In this document: one piece after another, positions 5,506 through 24,886 of the stretch
How the letters are laid out: each line of letters begins with the position of its first letter
Numbering within the stretch: position 1 is the stretch's first letter
The notes under the pieces: model-generated
What the model was told of the DNA's origin: nothing
The model's database searches: none
What the model saw: only the letters and a program-made list of their open reading frames with translations
From: a virus
Length of the DNA: 24,886 nucleotides
IMG/VR virus record: IMGVR_UViG_3300031566_000346
Span: 1-24,886 of that record
Strand: one strand, 5' to 3'
Made by a program: the position numbers and the translations under genes

Positions 5506-5913
5506 ATGGCAGCATTCAAGAAACAATCTGGCCGTCAGCAACCCATCGTTGCGGTCGCCTTGTTCGACTTCACGCAGCTCGTTTCCGCCGCCGCCAAGGG
5601 GCTGATCGAATTGCCGCCGGGTGCCGAAGTGTTGAGCGGCGCCATCGTGACCACGATCGTCTGGAACAGCGGCACGTCCGACGTTGCGGTTGTCGGTGAC
5701 GCCGGCTCGGCCAACCGTTACCGGGCCAGCGCGACGTTCGCTGCGGTCGGGCGCTACGCCCTGACCCCGACCGGGTACGTCACCACGGCGCCGACCAACG
5801 TGACGATCACTTGGACCGGCGCCGGCACGGCGATCACGACCGGCTCCGCGCGGCTGATGGTCGAGTACATCGTCCACGGTCGCTCGCAGTTCAATCAAGG
5901 CCTGGACGACTAA
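5506..5913 (+). CDS. Probable capsid decoration/cement protein
   Basis: This small 135-residue protein follows the major capsid gene. It has a short polar N-terminus (KKQSGRQQP), then mostly beta strands with Thr/Val/Gly, for example VLSGAIVTTIVWNSGTSDV and NVTITWTGAGTAITT. It ends VEYIVHGRSQFNQG. Small beta-rich proteins at this spot in podoviruses such as Bordetella BPP-1 are cement proteins, so that role is inferred. AAGGAG lies at 5493-5498, seven bases before ATG 5506. The strong terminator downstream ends this head module. Confidence 0.6.
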   Translation: MAAFKKQSGRQQPIVAVALFDFTQLVSAAAKGLIELPPGAEVLSGAIVTTIVWNSGTSDVAVVGDAGSANRYRASATFAAVGRYALTPTGYVTTAPTNVTITWTGAGTAITTGSARLMVEYIVHGRSQFNQGLDD

Positions 5914-5965
5914 CCGAATTGGCTCTTCCTGTCGAGCCTACTGCGTTCCGCCAGCACGGAACATT

Positions 5966-6019: not shown

Positions 6020-6445
6020 ATGGCCGTAAAACTATGGTCCCCCAAAGGCGACATGGACGATGGATCAACATTTCTGTCTTTGACAAGCGGGCATACCTGC
6101 ATCATTCCGCACGACAAGGAGGGCGTCGAAGTGCCGCTTCGTTTCCGCAAGGAGGCGATTGCGCGCGGCTGCATCCCGGTCGGGATGGAAGAAGAAGCGG
6201 ACGAGGCCGGCGGGTTCGATCGCTCCAAGGTCATCCGCGACAACATCAAGATCATGTTGGAGGACGACGACTCCGCCAACTTCACCACGGACGGCAAGCC
6301 GGCGATCGACAAGTTGGCGAAGCTCTGCGGTTTCCAGCTCGCGCGCTCCGAGGTCAACCGCGAGTGGGACGCGATGATGAAGGAGGACGGCGACGAGGCC
6401 GTTGAAGTCCTGAACGTCACCAGCGAACCGAAGGGCAAGAAGTGA
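6020..6445 (+). CDS. Small acidic phage protein of the neck region, unknown function
   Basis: The 141-residue acidic protein begins at ATG 6020 with GGAG at 6007-6010. The N-terminal half is beta-like (TFLSLTSGHTCIIPHD, then VEVPLRFRKEAIARGC). The second half is helical and charged (DRSKVIRDNIKIMLEDDDS, then IDKLAKLCGFQLARSEVNRE). Proteins of this layout often sit between capsid and adaptor genes in podoviruses, but no role is known to me. Its stop TGA overlaps the next start as GTGA, so translation is coupled. Confidence 0.65.
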   Translation: MAVKLWSPKGDMDDGSTFLSLTSGHTCIIPHDKEGVEVPLRFRKEAIARGCIPVGMEEEADEAGGFDRSKVIRDNIKIMLEDDDSANFTTDGKPAIDKLAKLCGFQLARSEVNREWDAMMKEDGDEAVEVLNVTSEPKGKK

Positions 6446-16652: not shown

Positions 16653-18656
16653 ATGGCATCCATCATGGACCCGTTGCCGGGTGAAGCGCCGCGCAAGAAA
16701 AAGCCGTCCATCATGGACCCGCTGCCAGAGGAATCGTCGGCGCTCCGGCGCTACGTTGCAGATCCGGCACTGTCGTTTTTCGCCAAGGGCGCGCTTGGAA
16801 TCGGCGAAGGAGTCGTCGGCCTAGCTGACATCGCTACGCTCGGCAAGGCCGGGAAAGCATTGGAAAACATTGGGGAGCGCATTTCCCCACCGCCTCCGAA
16901 TACCGGAGGGGTTATGCCGCCAGATTGGAAGCCGTCATTGGCGGACAATCTTCCTCGCGTCAGGGATCTCGGCGTTGACTTCAAACGTGCCGGCGAGGTT
17001 CTTGAGTCCTTCATGTCGCCAGAACAACAGGCGGTAAACAAGAAGGTAGGGTTGGCGATGGAGGGCGGCTTTATCCCTGCCGTCAAAGAGGCCATACAAA
17101 ATCCATCTTATCTTGCTCATGGGGTATTGCAGTCCATCCCCTTGTCGATCGGTGGAGCGGGGATTGGCAGCCTAGTTGCCAAGGGGGCTGGCGTGGTCGC
17201 GCCCAAACTCGCTGGCGCTCTTGCCGGACGCGCCGGAGGACTTGCGCGCGGGGCCATTGGCGAGGGGGCAATAAGCGGTGGGATGGGGGCGGAGCAAGGT
17301 AGACAGGAAAGCCCTGACCGTGAATTGACATTGAAGCAGGCTCTTATCCATGCGGGCAGCGGCGCGCTGACCGGCGGAATAGCGGGGGCCAGCGGCGGGT
17401 TATCGCGCAGACTCGGCATTACCGACATCGACACCGCGATTGCAGGAGGCGGGCTTGGGAGCGCAACAGCCAGAGGCGCCCAAAAGGGAATGATGCGCCG
17501 GGCCGGAGAGGGGTTTGTTACCGAGGGGGTCATAGAAGAAGGATTGCAGTCGGCGCAGGAGCAGGCGATGCAAAATCTCGCCGCTGGCAAGCCGTGGGAT
17601 GAGGGTGTTGGCGGGGCTACCGCGATCGGGATGTTGACAGGCGGACTCCAAGGCGGCGGCGCGGCGGCATTGTTCCACGGGAAACAACCCGTCCCGGTCC
17701 CCGAATCAATAGACCAGCAGTTCGAGCGCGCCTATGGCGTGGCGCCTGGCGGGCTGACCGACGAGCAGCTATCGGGGATGGATGTGCAGCGGGCCGAGGC
17801 GGGCGTGGGACCACCCGCACCGCCGGCCCCGTTCGACCCGAATGCCTACTACGACGGGCTGGTTGGGGATCAGCAGGCGCCGCCCGCCGCGCCAGCTCCC
17901 GACCCCCTGCACAAGCCCAACGCCGGCCCGCTTTCGCGCGCTGGCGCGATCGCCGTGGACACCGGGCTATCTGCGGACCCCTTCGGGGCGCCGGCCCCGA
18001 CAGAGGCGTTTGTGCCGCGCGCCGAGGTCACGACGCCCCCGGACTTGCAGATGCAGAACCGGGACCGTTCGCGGCCTGGTTCGATCGCGCAGATGAACGC
18101 CATCGCCAACAACCCGGACTACGATCGCCTGGGCGTTGGTCGATCCCCCAACGAGGCCGCGCCGATGGTATCGGTCGGGGCCAATGCGCCAGTCATCCCG
18201 GAAACGGACTTCGGCACCACCAGCCGGGTTGTCATGGGGGATGGTTCGAAGATCGGCGTCCGCTATGCCGTGGTCGAGGCCGATTCGGTGCTGGCGTCGC
18301 ACAACATCGACGGTTCGGTGAACGGCGACTACTTCGCCGCCGTGCCGCCTGGCACCATGCGCGCGCTGAACAACGGGCGAATTGCGGCCCTGCAAGCGGC
18401 CCACGCGCGGGGAACCACGGAAGCCTACAAGCAAGCCATGATAGAGGATGCGGCGGCTCATGGGATAGCCCCGGAGTCGATCGCCGCCAAGAAGGCGCCC
18501 GTCCTTGTCCGGGTCTACGATGACGCCGAGAATGCCCGGCCCAACATGGGGGCTATCTCGAACCCGCAATCCATGCGTCCGCGTCGGAGCAGGCGCAGAA
18601 CGACGCTCGCCTGCTGGATGTGGCCGCGCTCACGACCGACGAGAACGGTGACTTGA
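16653..18656 (+). CDS. Giant polyvalent (DdrB/DarB-type) protein, N-terminal part up to a frame break
   Basis: ATG 16653 follows GAGG at 16640-16643. The open frame gives 667 residues, but only about the first 640 look native. Two copies of SIMDPLP open the protein. Residues about 156-250 and 320-342 are glycine-rich and hydrophobic (SIGGAGIGSLVAKGAGVV, SGALTGGIAGASGG), like membrane-active parts of ejected proteins. A proline-rich linker comes next. From about residue 520 (FGTTSRVVMGDGSKIGVRY) a DdrB-like ParB-fold domain begins, with NNGRIAALQAAHARGT as its likely active motif. The sense then moves to the -1 frame. The final 26 residues here are Arg/Trp-rich and not family-like. Confidence 0.75.
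   Translation: MASIMDPLPGEAPRKKKPSIMDPLPEESSALRRYVADPALSFFAKGALGIGEGVVGLADIATLGKAGKALENIGERISPPPPNTGGVMPPDWKPSLADNLPRVRDLGVDFKRAGEVLESFMSPEQQAVNKKVGLAMEGGFIPAVKEAIQNPSYLAHGVLQSIPLSIGGAGIGSLVAKGAGVVAPKLAGALAGRAGGLARGAIGEGAISGGMGAEQGRQESPDRELTLKQALIHAGSGALTGGIAGASGGLSRRLGITDIDTAIAGGGLGSATARGAQKGMMRRAGEGFVTEGVIEEGLQSAQEQAMQNLAAGKPWDEGVGGATAIGMLTGGLQGGGAAALFHGKQPVPVPESIDQQFERAYGVAPGGLTDEQLSGMDVQRAEAGVGPPAPPAPFDPNAYYDGLVGDQQAPPAAPAPDPLHKPNAGPLSRAGAIAVDTGLSADPFGAPAPTEAFVPRAEVTTPPDLQMQNRDRSRPGSIAQMNAIANNPDYDRLGVGRSPNEAAPMVSVGANAPVIPETDFGTTSRVVMGDGSKIGVRYAVVEADSVLASHNIDGSVNGDYFAAVPPGTMRALNNGRIAALQAAHARGTTEAYKQAMIEDAAAHGIAPESIAAKKAPVLVRVYDDAENARPNMGAISNPQSMRPRRSRRRTTLACWMWPRSRPTRTVT
16659..16727 (+). 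repeat. Duplicated N-terminal SIMDPLP coding motif
   Basis: TCCATCATGGACCCG occurs at 16659-16673 and again at 16707-16721, 48 bases apart, each followed by a Leu-Pro codon pair. The motif might be a packaging or ejection tag. Confidence 0.75.
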
Positions 18657-18658
18657 TG
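18546..18658 (+). other. Frame break (-1) within the DdrB-like domain
   Basis: Up to about 18575 the protein sense is in the frame of ATG 16653, ending RPNMGAISNPQSM. From about 18578 it continues one base back as SASEQAQNDARLLDVAAL with strong third-position G/C bias. The giant frame is closed before 18524 by a TGA at 18521-18523, so the switch lies between those points. A run of five G (18548-18552) is the only slip-prone spot. No X-XXY-YYZ heptamer is seen. The old frame stops at TGA 18654-18656, which overlaps an ATG in the new frame (TGATG). Options are a base lost in this genome, a sequencing error, frameshifting or coupled restart. Confidence 0.8.
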
Positions 18659-21600
18659 GCGCCGGAGAACGAAGCGGCCATCAAGCAATTCCTGGCGGCG
18701 ATCCCGGCGTCGGAACAAAACGAGCTGGTCGGCAAATCCGGCTACACCAAGCAACTCGCAGACCGGGTGCGCGGCGCGGTGTTCGCCAAGGCATACGGCA
18801 ACGCCGACATCGTGAGCCAGGCTGTCGAGGACTCCGACCCGGAAACCAAGAACGTCCTGTCGGCCCTGACGATGGCCGCGCCGGAGTTCGCCAAGGTCGA
18901 GCATGGCGCCCCGCTGGACGTGCGCCCGGCAATGGTCGAGGCAATCGGCATCATCCGGTCGGCGCGGCAACGCGGGATCAAGGTGGCGGACCTGGCCGCG
19001 CATCCTGACTTGTTGGGGCGCGATCCGTACACGCAGAAGATGACCGACTTCATGGTGCAGAACGCGCGCTCTCCGAAGAAGATGGCGGCGGTATTTGCCG
19101 AGGCCGCACGGTTCCTGCAAGACGAGCAGCAGGCCAAGACTTCGGGCGATATGTTCGGGCGTCCTGCTGCCACCATTGCCGACATGACCAAGCGGGTCAA
19201 TGCTTACCTGGAGAAACTCTATGGCTCTGAAATCAATCGCTTCGCCGCAGAAGAAATCACCCCCATCCAACGAGAACAGCCAGCTTCGGGAGCAAGAGGC
19301 GGAGCTGATGATGCACTTCTTGATGACGGTCGGAAGCCGAATCAACAACGGCGAGCCGCCGCTGACGAGGGGCGCGCTCCGCCAGCCGCAAGGGAACCGC
19401 AAGGCGACCTAGCCGGGATCGTCCCTGACATTCAGGACGTTACCCAACTGCACAACAGGGAAACCGCATCAATCTCGCGCGCCGGGCATAGCGTTGAGTC
19501 GATGCCGGCGGAGTTGCAACTGTTTGTCGATACAGTCCGCGAGAGCGCAGAGATTGCCGCGTTGCCGGCTGAACAGCAGAAGGTATTGCTGGATCACTAC
19601 GGCAAGGCAGCGAGGGCGAAGGCCGAATACGACGCGATCGTTACCCGGATTTCAGAAGCGGTCAACGGCAAGCCTGGCCTGACGAAGTTGAAGGGCATCG
19701 GTCGGGCGGTCGAGAAAATCGTCGGTGACTACGACGGTGACGCCAGCCAGATCAAGGACATTCTTCGCGGGACCGTCAAGGTCGATACGCTTGAGGACGC
19801 GCAAGCGGCGGTCGCGCTTGTCCTAAAAGAGTTCAACGTGCTGGAGAAGGGCCGGCGCAACTTGTTTGCGGACGGTACGCCAGATCCAATCGACGGATAC
19901 CGCGATGCGAAATTCAACATCAGCATCGGCGGAATCACGGCAGAGGTTCAGGTTGGCATCGCGGAAATGCTTGATGCCAAAGAGAATGGGCCTGGTCACA
20001 AGCTGTACGAAGCTCGGCAGGACTTGGAGCGACTTGTTGGCTCCAGGGAAATGACCATCAAAGAGCGGGCATTACGGGATTCCCTGAACGCGCAGATGCG
20101 CGCGGTCTACGGGCCGGCGTGGGCCTCTGCCACCAAGGCGCGGAATGCAGCCTCGTCGATGGGGGCGCCGTTGCGTCGGGCCGAGCCGGGGTCGAACGGG
20201 CGCGGCGGCGAAACGTCGAAGCAGGCGCAGTACGGGGGCGACCCCCAATCCAAGGCGACCGGCATCCCTTCAACGTCGAAGAATTCCGCCGAAGGCCGGA
20301 ACGACTCTGGCAGCAATTTGGATGGTAGTTTCATTGATAACCCCATAGTAAAGGACGGCAAGAAAGAAAGCAATCAGTCAAGCCCACTTGACAAGAATCA
20401 TCCGGCCATTGTTGCCCTGTCGCAGCACAAGGATGCGGCTGCGGCGTTCACCACCCAGGACGGCATGATGGATATTGCCGACCTGGTTTCAGACAAAGAC
20501 CAGTCGAAAGACCCGAAGGTTCTGGCCGGCGGCACCGACCCGCGCGTGAAAGCGGCTACGTTCATGGTCGCCTCCATCGCTGGCAAGGAGAAGCCCCGCG
20601 CCCCCATTCTGGTGGAAAAGCGCCCGGATGGAAAGTACCAAGTCATTGACGGCAACGCGACCATGCAGGCGGCAAAGCTGGCCGGCTGGACGAAGGTGCC
20701 GGTTCAGTTCCAGGAAGCCCCGCCGGCAGCGCGGGAGCCGTCTTTCACCCTCACCGGCAGCGAACGGAAGGCCGACAAGAACCCGGCGCAGATCGGCTTG
20801 TTCGACGCCGCTGACGACTTCATTCGCACGTCGGTCGCCAAGCTGGTCGATCCGGCGCGGGACACCCCGAAGGGCAGGACGGCGCGCGAGCAGGCGCTAC
20901 GGGATCTGACTCGCGCCGGCAGGGTAAACGTGGTCGCCGCTGCAATCAATGCCGACATGATTACTGACGGTTCGGCCAGCATCGTCGGGCGCGAGGTCAC
21001 GTCCGCCGCTGACCTAGCAGCGGTCGCCCAGGTGTACCGCGACCCCCGGTTTGAAACCCTGCGCTATCTGTTTGTGAAGGACGGGAAGGTTGTATTCGAG
21101 TCCGCAGTTTCGTCGCGCCTGCCGGCAGCGGCATCGGCGTTCGCGGGGAATTGGCCGACGTTCATGAAATACATCAAGGCCCGGCTTGCAGACCTTGATG
21201 CGGACGGGTATTACCTGATGCACAACCATCCGTCCGGCGATGCCAGCGCATCCAATGCGGACAGGGCGCTGACCGAGCAGATTGCCAAGCTGGTCCCGAA
21301 GTTTCGCGGGCACGTCATCATCGACACCAACGAGTTCAATACCCTGAACGCGGCAGGCCGGGAGAATTTGCAGAAGGCGGATTTCGGCGCACAAGCTCCG
21401 CAGGAGAAACCGGCGATCGGGGGAACGACCGTTGCTCGGGGGGTTTTGGGGTATCGCGTTACTTCTAATTCGTCCGTGGCTAGGATCAGCAAGTTGCTAC
21501 AACAGCCAGGGAACGTGCCCTTGATCGGGATCTCTGCCGATGGCCGGGTTGTGTATGCCGCGACGATCACCACGGATGACCTGATGAGCAAGGGGCTGCG

Positions 21601-24600
21601 GTTCCCTGCCACTATGCGGCGCCTGGCGCGCGCGTCCGGGTCCGGCGGCGGGATGTTCATGACCGGGTTGAACGAGAAGGAATGGCAGAACGCAAAGCAT
21701 TGGGTGCAATCCGGGATTATGCGTGATGCCTTTTCGACGGACGGCAAGAGCGCCCTTCGATATCTGCTTGACGACGATGAACGTGTGGCCTCGCCGGCTT
21801 ACTTTGGGAAGTCGGAGTATGCAGGTGGGCGCTTGGTTCGCAATGCCGGCATCGTTGCCGAGCCGACTGCGCCCTACGATCCCTATGACCTGTTCGGGAA
21901 TGCGGGCGAGGTCACGGCAAAGACCAAGGCGGCGACCAAGAAGAAGGCGCCGGCCATTGCCGCCCTTCCGTCAAGCCAACTTGACTTGTTCGGGAACCCG
22001 GCGAATACTGGTAGTGAAGGAGGCAAAAATGGACGTGATGAAAACGGTCAAGCTGGCCCTAGAGGACCGCAACCCCAAACTGTACCGGGAGCTGGAACAG
22101 TCGGGGCGCCTCAAGGAGTTCTGCCAGGAACGGGCGGACCAGATTTGGGAAGCGGTAATCGAAATGACGGAGAACAGCCCGGAGGTCCGCAAGGCGTTCA
22201 GCCCGAAAAGCAACCTGTCGTTGATGGAGAAGGCGGCGGTGGGCAACAGCCAGCAGCAAGTGGCAATGGAAATCGCCCTCGACGCTTACCTGGAGTTCCC
22301 GCAGGACGAGACATCCCCGCCAAGACCGGGCGCAACCACGCTTTCAGCGACGACGATTTAAGCTACGCCGGAGGCTGGCTGACCAAGGGGCGGCAGAACG
22401 TCGCCGCCGTGCGCTTGCTGCGCCAGCTCGAACAGGAAGGCCGGCAAGCCACGAAGGAAGAACAAGCCGTCCTCGCCAAGTATGTCGGATGGGGGGCCGG
22501 CGAGCTTGCCAACAAGCTATTCGGCGGGAACCGCTGGAACCTGGACAAGTCATGGCAAGACCTTCGCTCCGAGGTCGAGGATCTGCTGTCGTCTGACGAG
22601 CTGGCCGAGGCGTCCAAATCCACGCAGTACGCGCACTACACATCGAAGGAGGTCGTGCGCGGGATGTGGGAAGCGGTGCGGCGCATGGGCTTCAAGGGCG
22701 GCGCCATCCTCGAACCAGGCTCCGGCATCGGGGTATTCCCCGGATTGATGGGGCCGGAGCTGGCGAACAACACGGCGTACACCGGCATCGAATTCGAGCC
22801 GATTGCCGGCGGCATCCTCAAGCAGCTCTTCCCCGACGAGCGTATCCACTTGGGCGACTTCATTAAATCGAAGCTGCCCAAAGACTTCTACGACTTGGCG
22901 ATCGGCAATCCGCCGTTCGCTGGCTTTCAGGTCTTGGCGGACCCGGAGTACCGGAAGCACGGCTTCCTGTTGCACGACTACTTCTTTGCCAAGACCGTCG
23001 ATCGCGTCAAGCCTGGCGGGATGATGGTGTTCGTCACCAGTCACGGCACGATGGACAAGAAGAACGACAAGGCCCGGCAATACCTGGCCGAGCGCGCTGA
23101 CCTGGTTGGCGCCATCCGCTTGCCGCAAACCGCATTCAAGAAGAACGCCGGCACCGAGGTTGTGACCGACGTACTGTTTCTCCGCAAGAAGGTTCCGGGC
23201 GAAAACTTCGAGCATGGTCAGGACTGGCTCGGCGTGAGCGGCGTTACCGGCGCGGACGGCAAGCTCCTGCAAAAGACCACGGAGAAGGGGAAGGAGCAGA
23301 TTTTCGTCAACGAGTATTTCATTGCCCACCCGGAAATGGTGCTTGGCACCCATTCAACGATGGGGTCAATGCGCTCGGCCAGCGAGTACACCGTCGAGCC
23401 GCGCGAGGGGGCCATAGAACAGCAGTTCCTTGATGCGGTCAACGCGCTGCCGGAGAACATTTACAACCCGGACCACGGCACGTCCGCCGACGCGGCGAAG
23501 GTGCAGCAGCTTGACCTTGACCCGAAGCACAAGAAGGAGGGCGGGTTCTATCTGTCCGACTCCGGGGTATTGATGCGCGTGGTCGATGGGGTTGGCAAGG
23601 CGTACATCAGCCAGAAGGCAGGGAAGGCGGCGGCAGAACAAAACGCCGTCCTGAAATCCTATGTTCCGCTGCGCGATGCGTTGAAGCAGGCGCAGTACGA
23701 CCAGTTGAACAATGGGCCGTGGGAGCAATCCCTTGCTGCGTTGCAGAAGGCGTACAAGGCGTTCGTTCGCAATCAGGGCAACATCCGGGCGAACACCCCA
23801 TACGAGCGGACGACCACGACACAGGACGAGGTAACGGGCGAACCGGTTGAATCGGTCAATAAGTACCGCCGCTGGAAGCACCAAGAAACCCTGCGCCAAG
23901 ATCCGGACTACTGGCTTGTCGCGGCGCTGGAAAACATCGACGAGGAAAGCGACGAGATTACGTCATCCAAGGCGCTGGCCGAGCGGGTCTTGGAAAAGCC
24001 GTCCGCGCCAGTTATCGAAACCGCAGGCGATGCCCTGGCGGCAACGCTAAACGAAACCGGCAAGGTAGACATTCCTCGCATTGCCGATCTGGCCGGGCTG
24101 TCCGAGGAAGAGGCTCTTGCCAGCCTGGCCGGCGCCATCTACCGGGCGCCGTCCGGGGAGTGGCAGACCGCCGACGAATACCTGTCCGGCGATGTACGGC
24201 AAAAGCTGGTCGAGGCGATGGAAGCAGCGGCGGCAGACAAGCGGTATGCGCCGAACGTCGAGGCGCTTCGTGCCGTGCAGCCACGCGAGATCCCGGCGGA
24301 GGACATCAATGTTCGCCTGGGGATGGCTTTCATTGAGCCTGACGTCTACGAGCAGTTCGCCAAGGAAGAGCTTGGCGTGACGGTCAGCGTAACGCACGTC
24401 CCGGCTACGGGCCGATGGATTGTCGAGCGCAGGCGCAACTGGAACGACACCGACGACTACGCGGTAGGCAGTTGGTCGGGCGCGGACATCATGGCTCACG
24501 GTATGTCCGGGGCGCCGATCCGCGTTACCATGCCCGGCCCCACCAAAGATAGCAAGCCCGTACTCGACTCGAACGCGACGGCGGCGGCGATCGCCAGAGA

Positions 24601-24886
24601 GCAAGAAATGCAACTCGCGTTCGGCTCCTGGCTGTTAAAGGACGAGGAGCGATCGGCCAAGGCCGTTGCCGACTACAACACGAAATTCAATACCGTGGTC
24701 CCGCGCCAGTTCGACGGTCGGCATATGTCCCTGCCAGGCACGTCCAAGCTATTCAACATTTTCGATCACGTTAAGCGCGGGGCGTGGCGGATCATCCAGT
24801 CCGGCAATACCTACCTGGCCCATGCGGTCGGCAGCGGCAAGACGTTCCAGATGATTATTTCCGCGATGGAGCAGAAGCGCCTGGGC
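18656..24886 (+). CDS. Giant polyvalent protein continued: ParB-like, RelA/SpoT-like, JAB, methylase and helicase (partial)
   Basis: The frame is open from 18524 to the right edge. ATG 18656 is the first ATG, and 2077 codons lie in the window. After the rest of the DdrB-like domain, residues about 344-461 match a RelA/SpoT-like nucleotidyltransferase (DILRGTVKVDTLEDAQAA, GYRDAKFNI, AEVQVGI, GHKLYE). Residues about 578-685 are ParB-like (KYQVIDGNATMQAAKLAGW). Residues about 781-905 hold a RadC/JAB domain with HNHPSG at 21221-21238. From about 1236 comes an adenine-N6 methylase with EPGSGIG at 22712 and NPPF at 22907. A helicase begins with Walker A GSGKT at 24830-24844. Such proteins guard incoming DNA. 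Length recalls the roughly 4600-residue Bcep22 virion protein. Confidence 0.85.
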   Translation, partial: MAPENEAAIKQFLAAIPASEQNELVGKSGYTKQLADRVRGAVFAKAYGNADIVSQAVEDSDPETKNVLSALTMAAPEFAKVEHGAPLDVRPAMVEAIGIIRSARQRGIKVADLAAHPDLLGRDPYTQKMTDFMVQNARSPKKMAAVFAEAARFLQDEQQAKTSGDMFGRPAATIADMTKRVNAYLEKLYGSEINRFAAEEITPIQREQPASGARGGADDALLDDGRKPNQQRRAAADEGRAPPAAREPQGDLAGIVPDIQDVTQLHNRETASISRAGHSVESMPAELQLFVDTVRESAEIAALPAEQQKVLLDHYGKAARAKAEYDAIVTRISEAVNGKPGLTKLKGIGRAVEKIVGDYDGDASQIKDILRGTVKVDTLEDAQAAVALVLKEFNVLEKGRRNLFADGTPDPIDGYRDAKFNISIGGITAEVQVGIAEMLDAKENGPGHKLYEARQDLERLVGSREMTIKERALRDSLNAQMRAVYGPAWASATKARNAASSMGAPLRRAEPGSNGRGGETSKQAQYGGDPQSKATGIPSTSKNSAEGRNDSGSNLDGSFIDNPIVKDGKKESNQSSPLDKNHPAIVALSQHKDAAAAFTTQDGMMDIADLVSDKDQSKDPKVLAGGTDPRVKAATFMVASIAGKEKPRAPILVEKRPDGKYQVIDGNATMQAAKLAGWTKVPVQFQEAPPAAREPSFTLTGSERKADKNPAQIGLFDAADDFIRTSVAKLVDPARDTPKGRTAREQALRDLTRAGRVNVVAAAINADMITDGSASIVGREVTSAADLAAVAQVYRDPRFETLRYLFVKDGKVVFESAVSSRLPAAASAFAGNWPTFMKYIKARLADLDADGYYLMHNHPSGDASASNADRALTEQIAKLVPKFRGHVIIDTNEFNTLNAAGRENLQKADFGAQAPQEKPAIGGTTVARGVLGYRVTSNSSVARISKLLQQPGNVPLIGISADGRVVYAATITTDDLMSKGLRFPATMRRLARASGSGGGMFMTGLNEKEWQNAKHWVQSGIMRDAFSTDGKSALRYLLDDDERVASPAYFGKSEYAGGRLVRNAGIVAEPTAPYDPYDLFGNAGEVTAKTKAATKKKAPAIAALPSSQLDLFGNPANTGSEGGKNGRDENGQAGPRGPQPQTVPGAGTVGAPQGVLPGTGGPDLGSGNRNDGEQPGGPQGVQPEKQPVVDGEGGGGQQPAASGNGNRPRRLPGVPAGRDIPAKTGRNHAFSDDDLSYAGGWLTKGRQNVAAVRLLRQLEQEGRQATKEEQAVLAKYVGWGAGELANKLFGGNRWNLDKSWQDLRSEVEDLLSSDELAEASKSTQYAHYTSKEVVRGMWEAVRRMGFKGGAILEPGSGIGVFPGLMGPELANNTAYTGIEFEPIAGGILKQLFPDERIHLGDFIKSKLPKDFYDLAIGNPPFAGFQVLADPEYRKHGFLLHDYFFAKTVDRVKPGGMMVFVTSHGTMDKKNDKARQYLAERADLVGAIRLPQTAFKKNAGTEVVTDVLFLRKKVPGENFEHGQDWLGVSGVTGADGKLLQKTTEKGKEQIFVNEYFIAHPEMVLGTHSTMGSMRSASEYTVEPREGAIEQQFLDAVNALPENIYNPDHGTSADAAKVQQLDLDPKHKKEGGFYLSDSGVLMRVVDGVGKAYISQKAGKAAAEQNAVLKSYVPLRDALKQAQYDQLNNGPWEQSLAALQKAYKAFVRNQGNIRANTPYERTTTTQDEVTGEPVESVNKYRRWKHQETLRQDPDYWLVAALENIDEESDEITSSKALAERVLEKPSAPVIETAGDALAATLNETGKVDIPRIADLAGLSEEEALASLAGAIYRAPSGEWQTADEYLSGDVRQKLVEAMEAAAADKRYAPNVEALRAVQPREIPAEDINVRLGMAFIEPDVYEQFAKEELGVTVSVTHVPATGRWIVERRRNWNDTDDYAVGSWSGADIMAHGMSGAPIRVTMPGPTKDSKPVLDSNATAAAIAREQEMQLAFGSWLLKDEERSAKAVADYNTKFNTVVPRQFDGRHMSLPGTSKLFNIFDHVKRGAWRIIQSGNTYLAHAVGSGKTFQMIISAMEQKRLG
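19210..19213 (+). promoter_or_regulatory. Shine-Dalgarno of nested gene 1
   Basis: GGAG lies seven bases before ATG 19221, an optimal distance, although it also falls inside the giant frame's own codons. Confidence 0.6.
19221..19412 (+). CDS. Nested out-of-frame small gene 1 (63 residues), unknown
   Basis: The ORF sits +1 to the giant frame, in the linker between the DdrB-like and RelA/SpoT-like domains. It encodes a polar N-terminus, then QLREQEAELMMHFLMTVGS, a likely amphipathic helix, then a basic tail. By hand count 51 of 63 codons end in G or C. In 19281-19355 it has 21 of 25, whereas the giant frame over the same stretch has 7 of 25, so codon bias has switched frame. It has its own ribosome site. 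I do not recognise a family. It could be an independent small protein or the remnant of a gene once separate from the giant gene. Confidence 0.55.
   Translation: MALKSIASPQKKSPPSNENSQLREQEAELMMHFLMTVGSRINNGEPPLTRGALRQPQGNRKAT
22017..22023 (+). promoter_or_regulatory. Perfect Shine-Dalgarno of nested gene 2
   Basis: AAGGAGG lies five bases before ATG 22029. It is the strongest ribosome site in the giant gene and lies inside a linker, where the giant frame has no use for it. Confidence 0.75.
22029..22361 (+). CDS. Nested out-of-frame small gene 2 (110 residues), unknown
   Basis: The ORF is +1 to the giant frame, in the linker between the JAB and methylase parts. It encodes a mostly helical protein (MKTVKLALEDRNPKLYRELE, then RLKEFCQERADQIWEAVIEM, then SLMEKAAVGNSQQQVAMEIA) with a polar Pro/Thr tail. 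Of its first 40 codons 34 end in G or C. In the overlapping giant frame, 40 codons from 22022 give 12 and encode only a Gly/Pro/Gln linker. The ribosome site is ideal. The LYRELExSGxLxEF helix recalls short proteins beside DarB-type genes on mobile elements, from memory only. Function is unknown. Confidence 0.75.
   Translation: MDVMKTVKLALEDRNPKLYRELEQSGRLKEFCQERADQIWEAVIEMTENSPEVRKAFSPKSNLSLMEKAAVGNSQQQVAMEIALDAYLEFPQDETSPPRPGATTLSATTI

Follow-up and report, generated by a model that had tools for sequence, protein, structure and literature searches.

Small genes lying within larger genes are classical features of phage genomes; gene E of phiX174 lies in D, and Rz1 of lambda lies in Rz. The polyvalent proteins, including the DarB-like methylase-helicase proteins, have been surveyed (PMC5512222), and the text of that survey mentions neither TnpV nor an overlapping gene. 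TnpV of Tn4451 has been postulated to act in excision (PMC3158075), and no description of an overlap between TnpV and a giant polyvalent gene was found in the open-access literature. Here we analyzed a window of 24,886 nucleotides, positions 1 to 24,886 of the viral record IMGVR_UViG_3300031566_000346, in which one segment of a DarB-like giant gene very probably encodes two proteins, as judged from the sequence: a +1 gene of the TnpV superfamily, equipped with a ribosome-binding site and an ATG of its own, and the giant itself, whose read-through would gain a disorder-prone linker. The features of the locus are as follows.

18620 to 24886, plus strand: giant polyvalent (DarB-like methylase/helicase) gene, continuing past the window end
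22017 to 22023, plus strand: Shine-Dalgarno sequence AAGGAGG, 5 nt upstream of the nested ATG
22028 to 22360, plus strand: giant-frame linker NGRDENGQAGPRGPQPQT..., overlapping the nested gene, open and of low complexity
22029 to 22361, plus strand: nested gene of 110 aa, putative TnpV superfamily member, +1 relative to the giant frame
22400 to 23401, plus strand: start of the DarB-like adenine methylase region, used as the query for relatives

The region from 22400 to 24886 matches phrog_10089 (DarB-like antirestriction) with an E value of 6.5e-263, which identifies the methylase-helicase fusion of a DarB-like protein; the Eco57I-type methylase match falls slightly below its cut-off, and the helicase part extends beyond the window end. 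Upstream, the ORF at 16653-18656, in frame 0, and that of the giant, in frame 2, give consecutive matches to phrog_5143, at profile positions 343-405 and then 432-673, and in the relatives L002-L006 the giant is in each case a single ORF. The giant is probably one gene that begins at the ORF 16653-18656 and is broken by a single frame change where the two ORFs overlap, in the region 18524-18700; the change may be an assembly error, a real split or a frameshift. Just ahead of the nested start, at 21977-21991, the giant carries QLDLF, a textbook sliding-clamp-binding motif, and similar LFG motifs lie close by.

The original prediction of a 110-residue ORF, +1 to the giant frame, at 22029-22361 was confirmed at the exact coordinates, with the start ATG at 22029 and the stop TAA at 22359-22361, and the predicted AAGGAGG five bases from the ATG does start at 22017. 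The codon counts given earlier were reproduced exactly, 34 of the first 40 codons ending in G/C in the nested frame versus 12 of 40 in the giant frame, and when 40-codon windows were scored for GC3 over the entire giant ORF, the minimum fell at the site of the nested gene. The giant ORF has no stop across the nested ORF, and its translation there is rich in Gly/Pro/Gln/Asn, supporting the earlier claim that the giant yields just a linker over the nested gene; no conserved sequence was found in this linker among the relatives. That the nested ORF is a mere chance ORF in GC-rich DNA has a negligible probability. Long +1 ORFs are indeed common in these giants, with 250 other ATG-started ORFs of at least 80 aa at other sites of the giant ORFs (868 kb in all), so that open length by itself is no evidence for a nested gene; what lifts this ORF beyond chance, and refutes that explanation, is the homology at the same site and in the same frame in relatives, together with the start signals and the substitution pattern described below.

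Because single-sequence searches with the window protein gave no match in phages, plasmids, viral contigs or genome contigs, the methylase of the giant was needed as a handle for relatives. In total, 124 loci (viral loci and phage and plasmid records) were gathered, mostly via the methylase domain of the giant, with 28 found through the nested gene itself; one viral set of 80 loci comprises the best 80 of 441 and is biased to methylases resembling that of the window, and since some loci share contigs, unique DNA was counted. The original prediction had named as its test relatives that keep the linker and lose the nested frame or its Shine-Dalgarno sequence, and it withstood this comparison: a homologous nested ORF lies just upstream of the methylase, within a few hundred bases, in 121 of the 124 loci, and it is +1 in all 121, with no homologue in the other alternative frame. 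The three loci lacking it are the plasmid helicase loci L015 and L016 and the distant viral locus L008, the last being the only exception among the loci fetched by the methylase alone. The homologues found with proteobacterial family profiles were all nested in a giant (28/28). The 95 unique nested sequences (89 starting with ATG and 6 with GTG) fall into 80 clusters at 90%, 58 at 60% and 23 at 40% identity, and the hosts of annotated members include Burkholderia, Pseudomonas, Klebsiella, Erwinia, Vibrio, Sinorhizobium, Ochrobactrum, Agrobacterium and Microcystis.

Two loci have at this site a +1 nested ORF, 80-86 aa long, with no detectable similarity to TnpV, namely, L008 (about 5678-5917) and Bacteroides phage BKO1-TP3 (L128, 4651-4911); the latter had no relatives in viral contigs and is not claimed as a homologue. 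Among the matching phage records with gene annotation, only the giant is named, PBC5 apart. In Sinorhizobium phage PBC5 (L012/L035/L263), the nested gene and the upstream half of the giant share one reading frame, two DarB-like genes are annotated, and the small gene is absorbed into a longer ORF; the relatives of PBC5 have one open giant, and the PBC5 arrangement may be either a frame error in the 2001 sequence or a natural split. A Monoglobus plasmid (L267, NZ_OY725736.1, 4022-8348) carries a TnpV annotation, and its SNF2 gene is annotated as beginning only at 6271 even though that frame is open from 3160. Nested overlaps of this kind apparently lead annotation to shorten the giant.

In order to follow selection on the two frames, substitutions were counted in 20 disjoint pairs of relatives, with the neighboring methylase as the flank. 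At giant codon positions 1/2/3 there were 342/183/173 substitutions in the overlap versus 315/178/1102 in the flank; that is, the silent position in the overlap is shifted to the third position of the nested frame. The nested protein was conserved above the linker in 19 of the 20 pairs and equally in the remaining one. An ATG combined with a Shine-Dalgarno match of at least 6 nt was found at 41% of nested starts versus 0.8% in selection-matched controls, with a weak Shine-Dalgarno sequence (at most 4 matching nt) at 34 of the 95 starts. The earlier claim that selection acts on the nested frame is borne out by this substitution shift and start-signal enrichment. As for the giant frame, synonymous-codon shuffling of the nested genes predicted 109 giant-frame stops in the overlaps and none was observed, while third-frame stops were at their expected level (616 versus 628 expected). 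Nested codons ending in T were never found before codons beginning with AA, AG or GA (0/2898), versus 494/6865 elsewhere, and large hydrophobic residues make up 9.5% of the linker versus 26.5% of the nested protein. According to these counts, the overlap DNA is dual-coding, with both frames selected.

The window protein itself scored 13.4 bits (E value of 0.075) against Pfam TnpV (PF14198), below the gathering cut-off of 27 bits, which two relatives exceeded (L002, 31.1 bits; L006, 28.3 bits), and 20 of 64 nested proteins matched TnpV at an E value of 0.01 or lower. With hhalign, the nested family profile aligned with clostridial TnpV over 79 columns (probability, 96.5; E value, 7.6e-10); a second nested subfamily (MNLQNWISQAREHWK...) reached a probability of 9.9 to TnpV with its profile alone and of 73 to the window family. 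The AlphaFold model of the nested protein is all-helical with a pLDDT of 88.5, mostly above 90 in the first 87 residues, and its helix order matches that of the clostridial TnpV model as compared without superposition; an N-terminal beta-hairpin is predicted for clostridial TnpV and is absent in the window protein model. On these profile and model comparisons, we class the window protein in the TnpV superfamily, where it is divergent, and not as a TnpV by Pfam's own criterion. A PHROGs search assigned no family to the window protein, a related nested subfamily matches phrog_938, a long-ORF profile, at its C-terminus only, fold searches of PDB and BFVD gave no confident relative and no match indicating function, and PDB sequence searches with the nested protein returned nothing useful.

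In clostridial gut elements, SNF2/methylase giants likewise contain a bona fide TnpV (142 bits) nested in +1. A clostridial scan found 69 of 80 TnpV genes nested, a figure that is biased because the search was seeded with nested copies; a survey of the family in ten genomes gave 85 TnpV matches, and 10 of the 29 that were read are nested, all of them +1, which is the fairer estimate. No TnpV was found in 14 control genomes. Across 54 unique clostridial nested copies there were 0 giant-frame stops versus 164 expected, and on the clostridial tree the nested state requires about five changes, at least three of which are forced. Some free TnpV genes follow immediately after the gene of a type IV coupling protein (L221, L229, L230, and L212), a relaxase (L225 and L231) or a serine recombinase (L232). 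We put forward tentatively that nesting may have arisen or disappeared on more than one occasion, each time in +1, and that proteins of the TnpV family may from ancient times have been a second component of the methylase-helicase systems of antirestriction, with one stretch of DNA coding for both the giant and its small partner in phages as well as in mobile elements of Clostridia, across different phyla.

The Shine-Dalgarno sequence and ATG, together with the in-frame stops near upstream of many nested starts, lead us to infer that the nested gene would be initiated independently on a polycistronic message, the same mRNA that encodes the giant. Programmed frameshifting from the giant, which would give its N-terminal part a TnpV tail with no independent initiation, is quite improbable; the in-frame upstream part of PBC5 would suit it, but PBC5 is alone among the relatives and its sequence dates from 2001, while Shine-Dalgarno sequence plus ATG is strongly enriched at nested starts and in 32 of the 95 loci an in-frame stop no more than 10 codons upstream leaves scant room for a slip site. 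That the giant is not read through at all, with separate upstream and downstream genes and a linker left open by an accident of GC content, is how annotation sometimes splits such loci, as with the SNF2 gene started behind TnpV in the Monoglobus plasmid; however, the complete lack of giant-frame stops in both the phage and the clostridial sets, and of any T-ending codon where such a stop would result, makes this extremely improbable. The TnpV reading would be the older one and the linker would have been overprinted when the flanking coding regions fused across a small TnpV gene, since TnpV also occurs as a free gene and no sequence is conserved in the linker. The fixed +1 register may follow from stop avoidance, as a silent third-base change in the nested gene suffices to remove any giant-frame stop (T-AA, T-AG or T-GA, spanning two nested codons).

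As to function, we suggest with reservation that the product may serve the DNA-entry/antirestriction machinery as an accessory protein, working with proteins that act on incoming mobile DNA and possibly a partner of the giant; its partner proteins would be the methylase/SNF2 helicase here and the coupling protein or relaxase elsewhere. The original prediction had raised a partner or brake of the nearby methylase/helicase as an idea, and both stay hypothetical. Overlap alone can explain co-inheritance and does not require a functional link to the giant, and this, with the occurrence of free TnpV genes apart from any giant, would fit a separate effector, for host takeover or inhibition, that merely shares DNA with the giant. 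Against such an effector, which we consider somewhat unlikely, stand the consistent nesting of the proteobacterial-profile homologues and the frequent position of the examined free clostridial copies beside DNA-transfer genes. A role as an excision or recombination directionality factor, the function postulated for Tn4451 TnpV from similarity to lambda Xis, would agree with the one free copy directly behind a serine recombinase, but the nested copies go with methylase/helicase giants and not with integrases. Lambda Xis is moreover a winged helix, whereas the fold predicted here is all-helical, and we regard an Xis-like role as improbable.

New beyond the original prediction are the kinship with the TnpV superfamily, the free clostridial copies and the recurrence of nesting in Clostridia. 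An out-of-frame gene is conserved across phages of many hosts and is missing from the phage records examined; TnpV, a family without known function, gains a clear genetic context, and the polyvalent antirestriction proteins gain a small companion that can be tested. The set also constitutes a natural experiment in overprinting, in which one family occurs free and nested and, when nested, always in one frame.

Compared with known systems, the window giant is one of the DarB-like polyvalent methylase-helicase proteins by its phrog_10089 match, whereas P1 DarB itself is without a nested gene, as are the Thermus relatives. With TnpV (PF14198), known from Tn4451/Tn6104-type and clostridial elements, the window copy shares homology over helices 1-5, the predicted order of the helices and the +1 nesting; it differs in scoring under the Pfam cut-off, in lacking the N-terminal beta-hairpin and in its position, directly before the methylase in a giant of the proteobacterial phage type, whereas the clostridial TnpV of L132 lies about 2.4 kb upstream of the methylase. 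As in the classical cases of phiX174 E and lambda Rz1, a small same-strand gene with its own start lies wholly within a larger one; here, however, the small frame comes from a widespread family with free members, the larger frame is likely the newcomer in the overlap, and the arrangement recurs in unrelated mobile elements.
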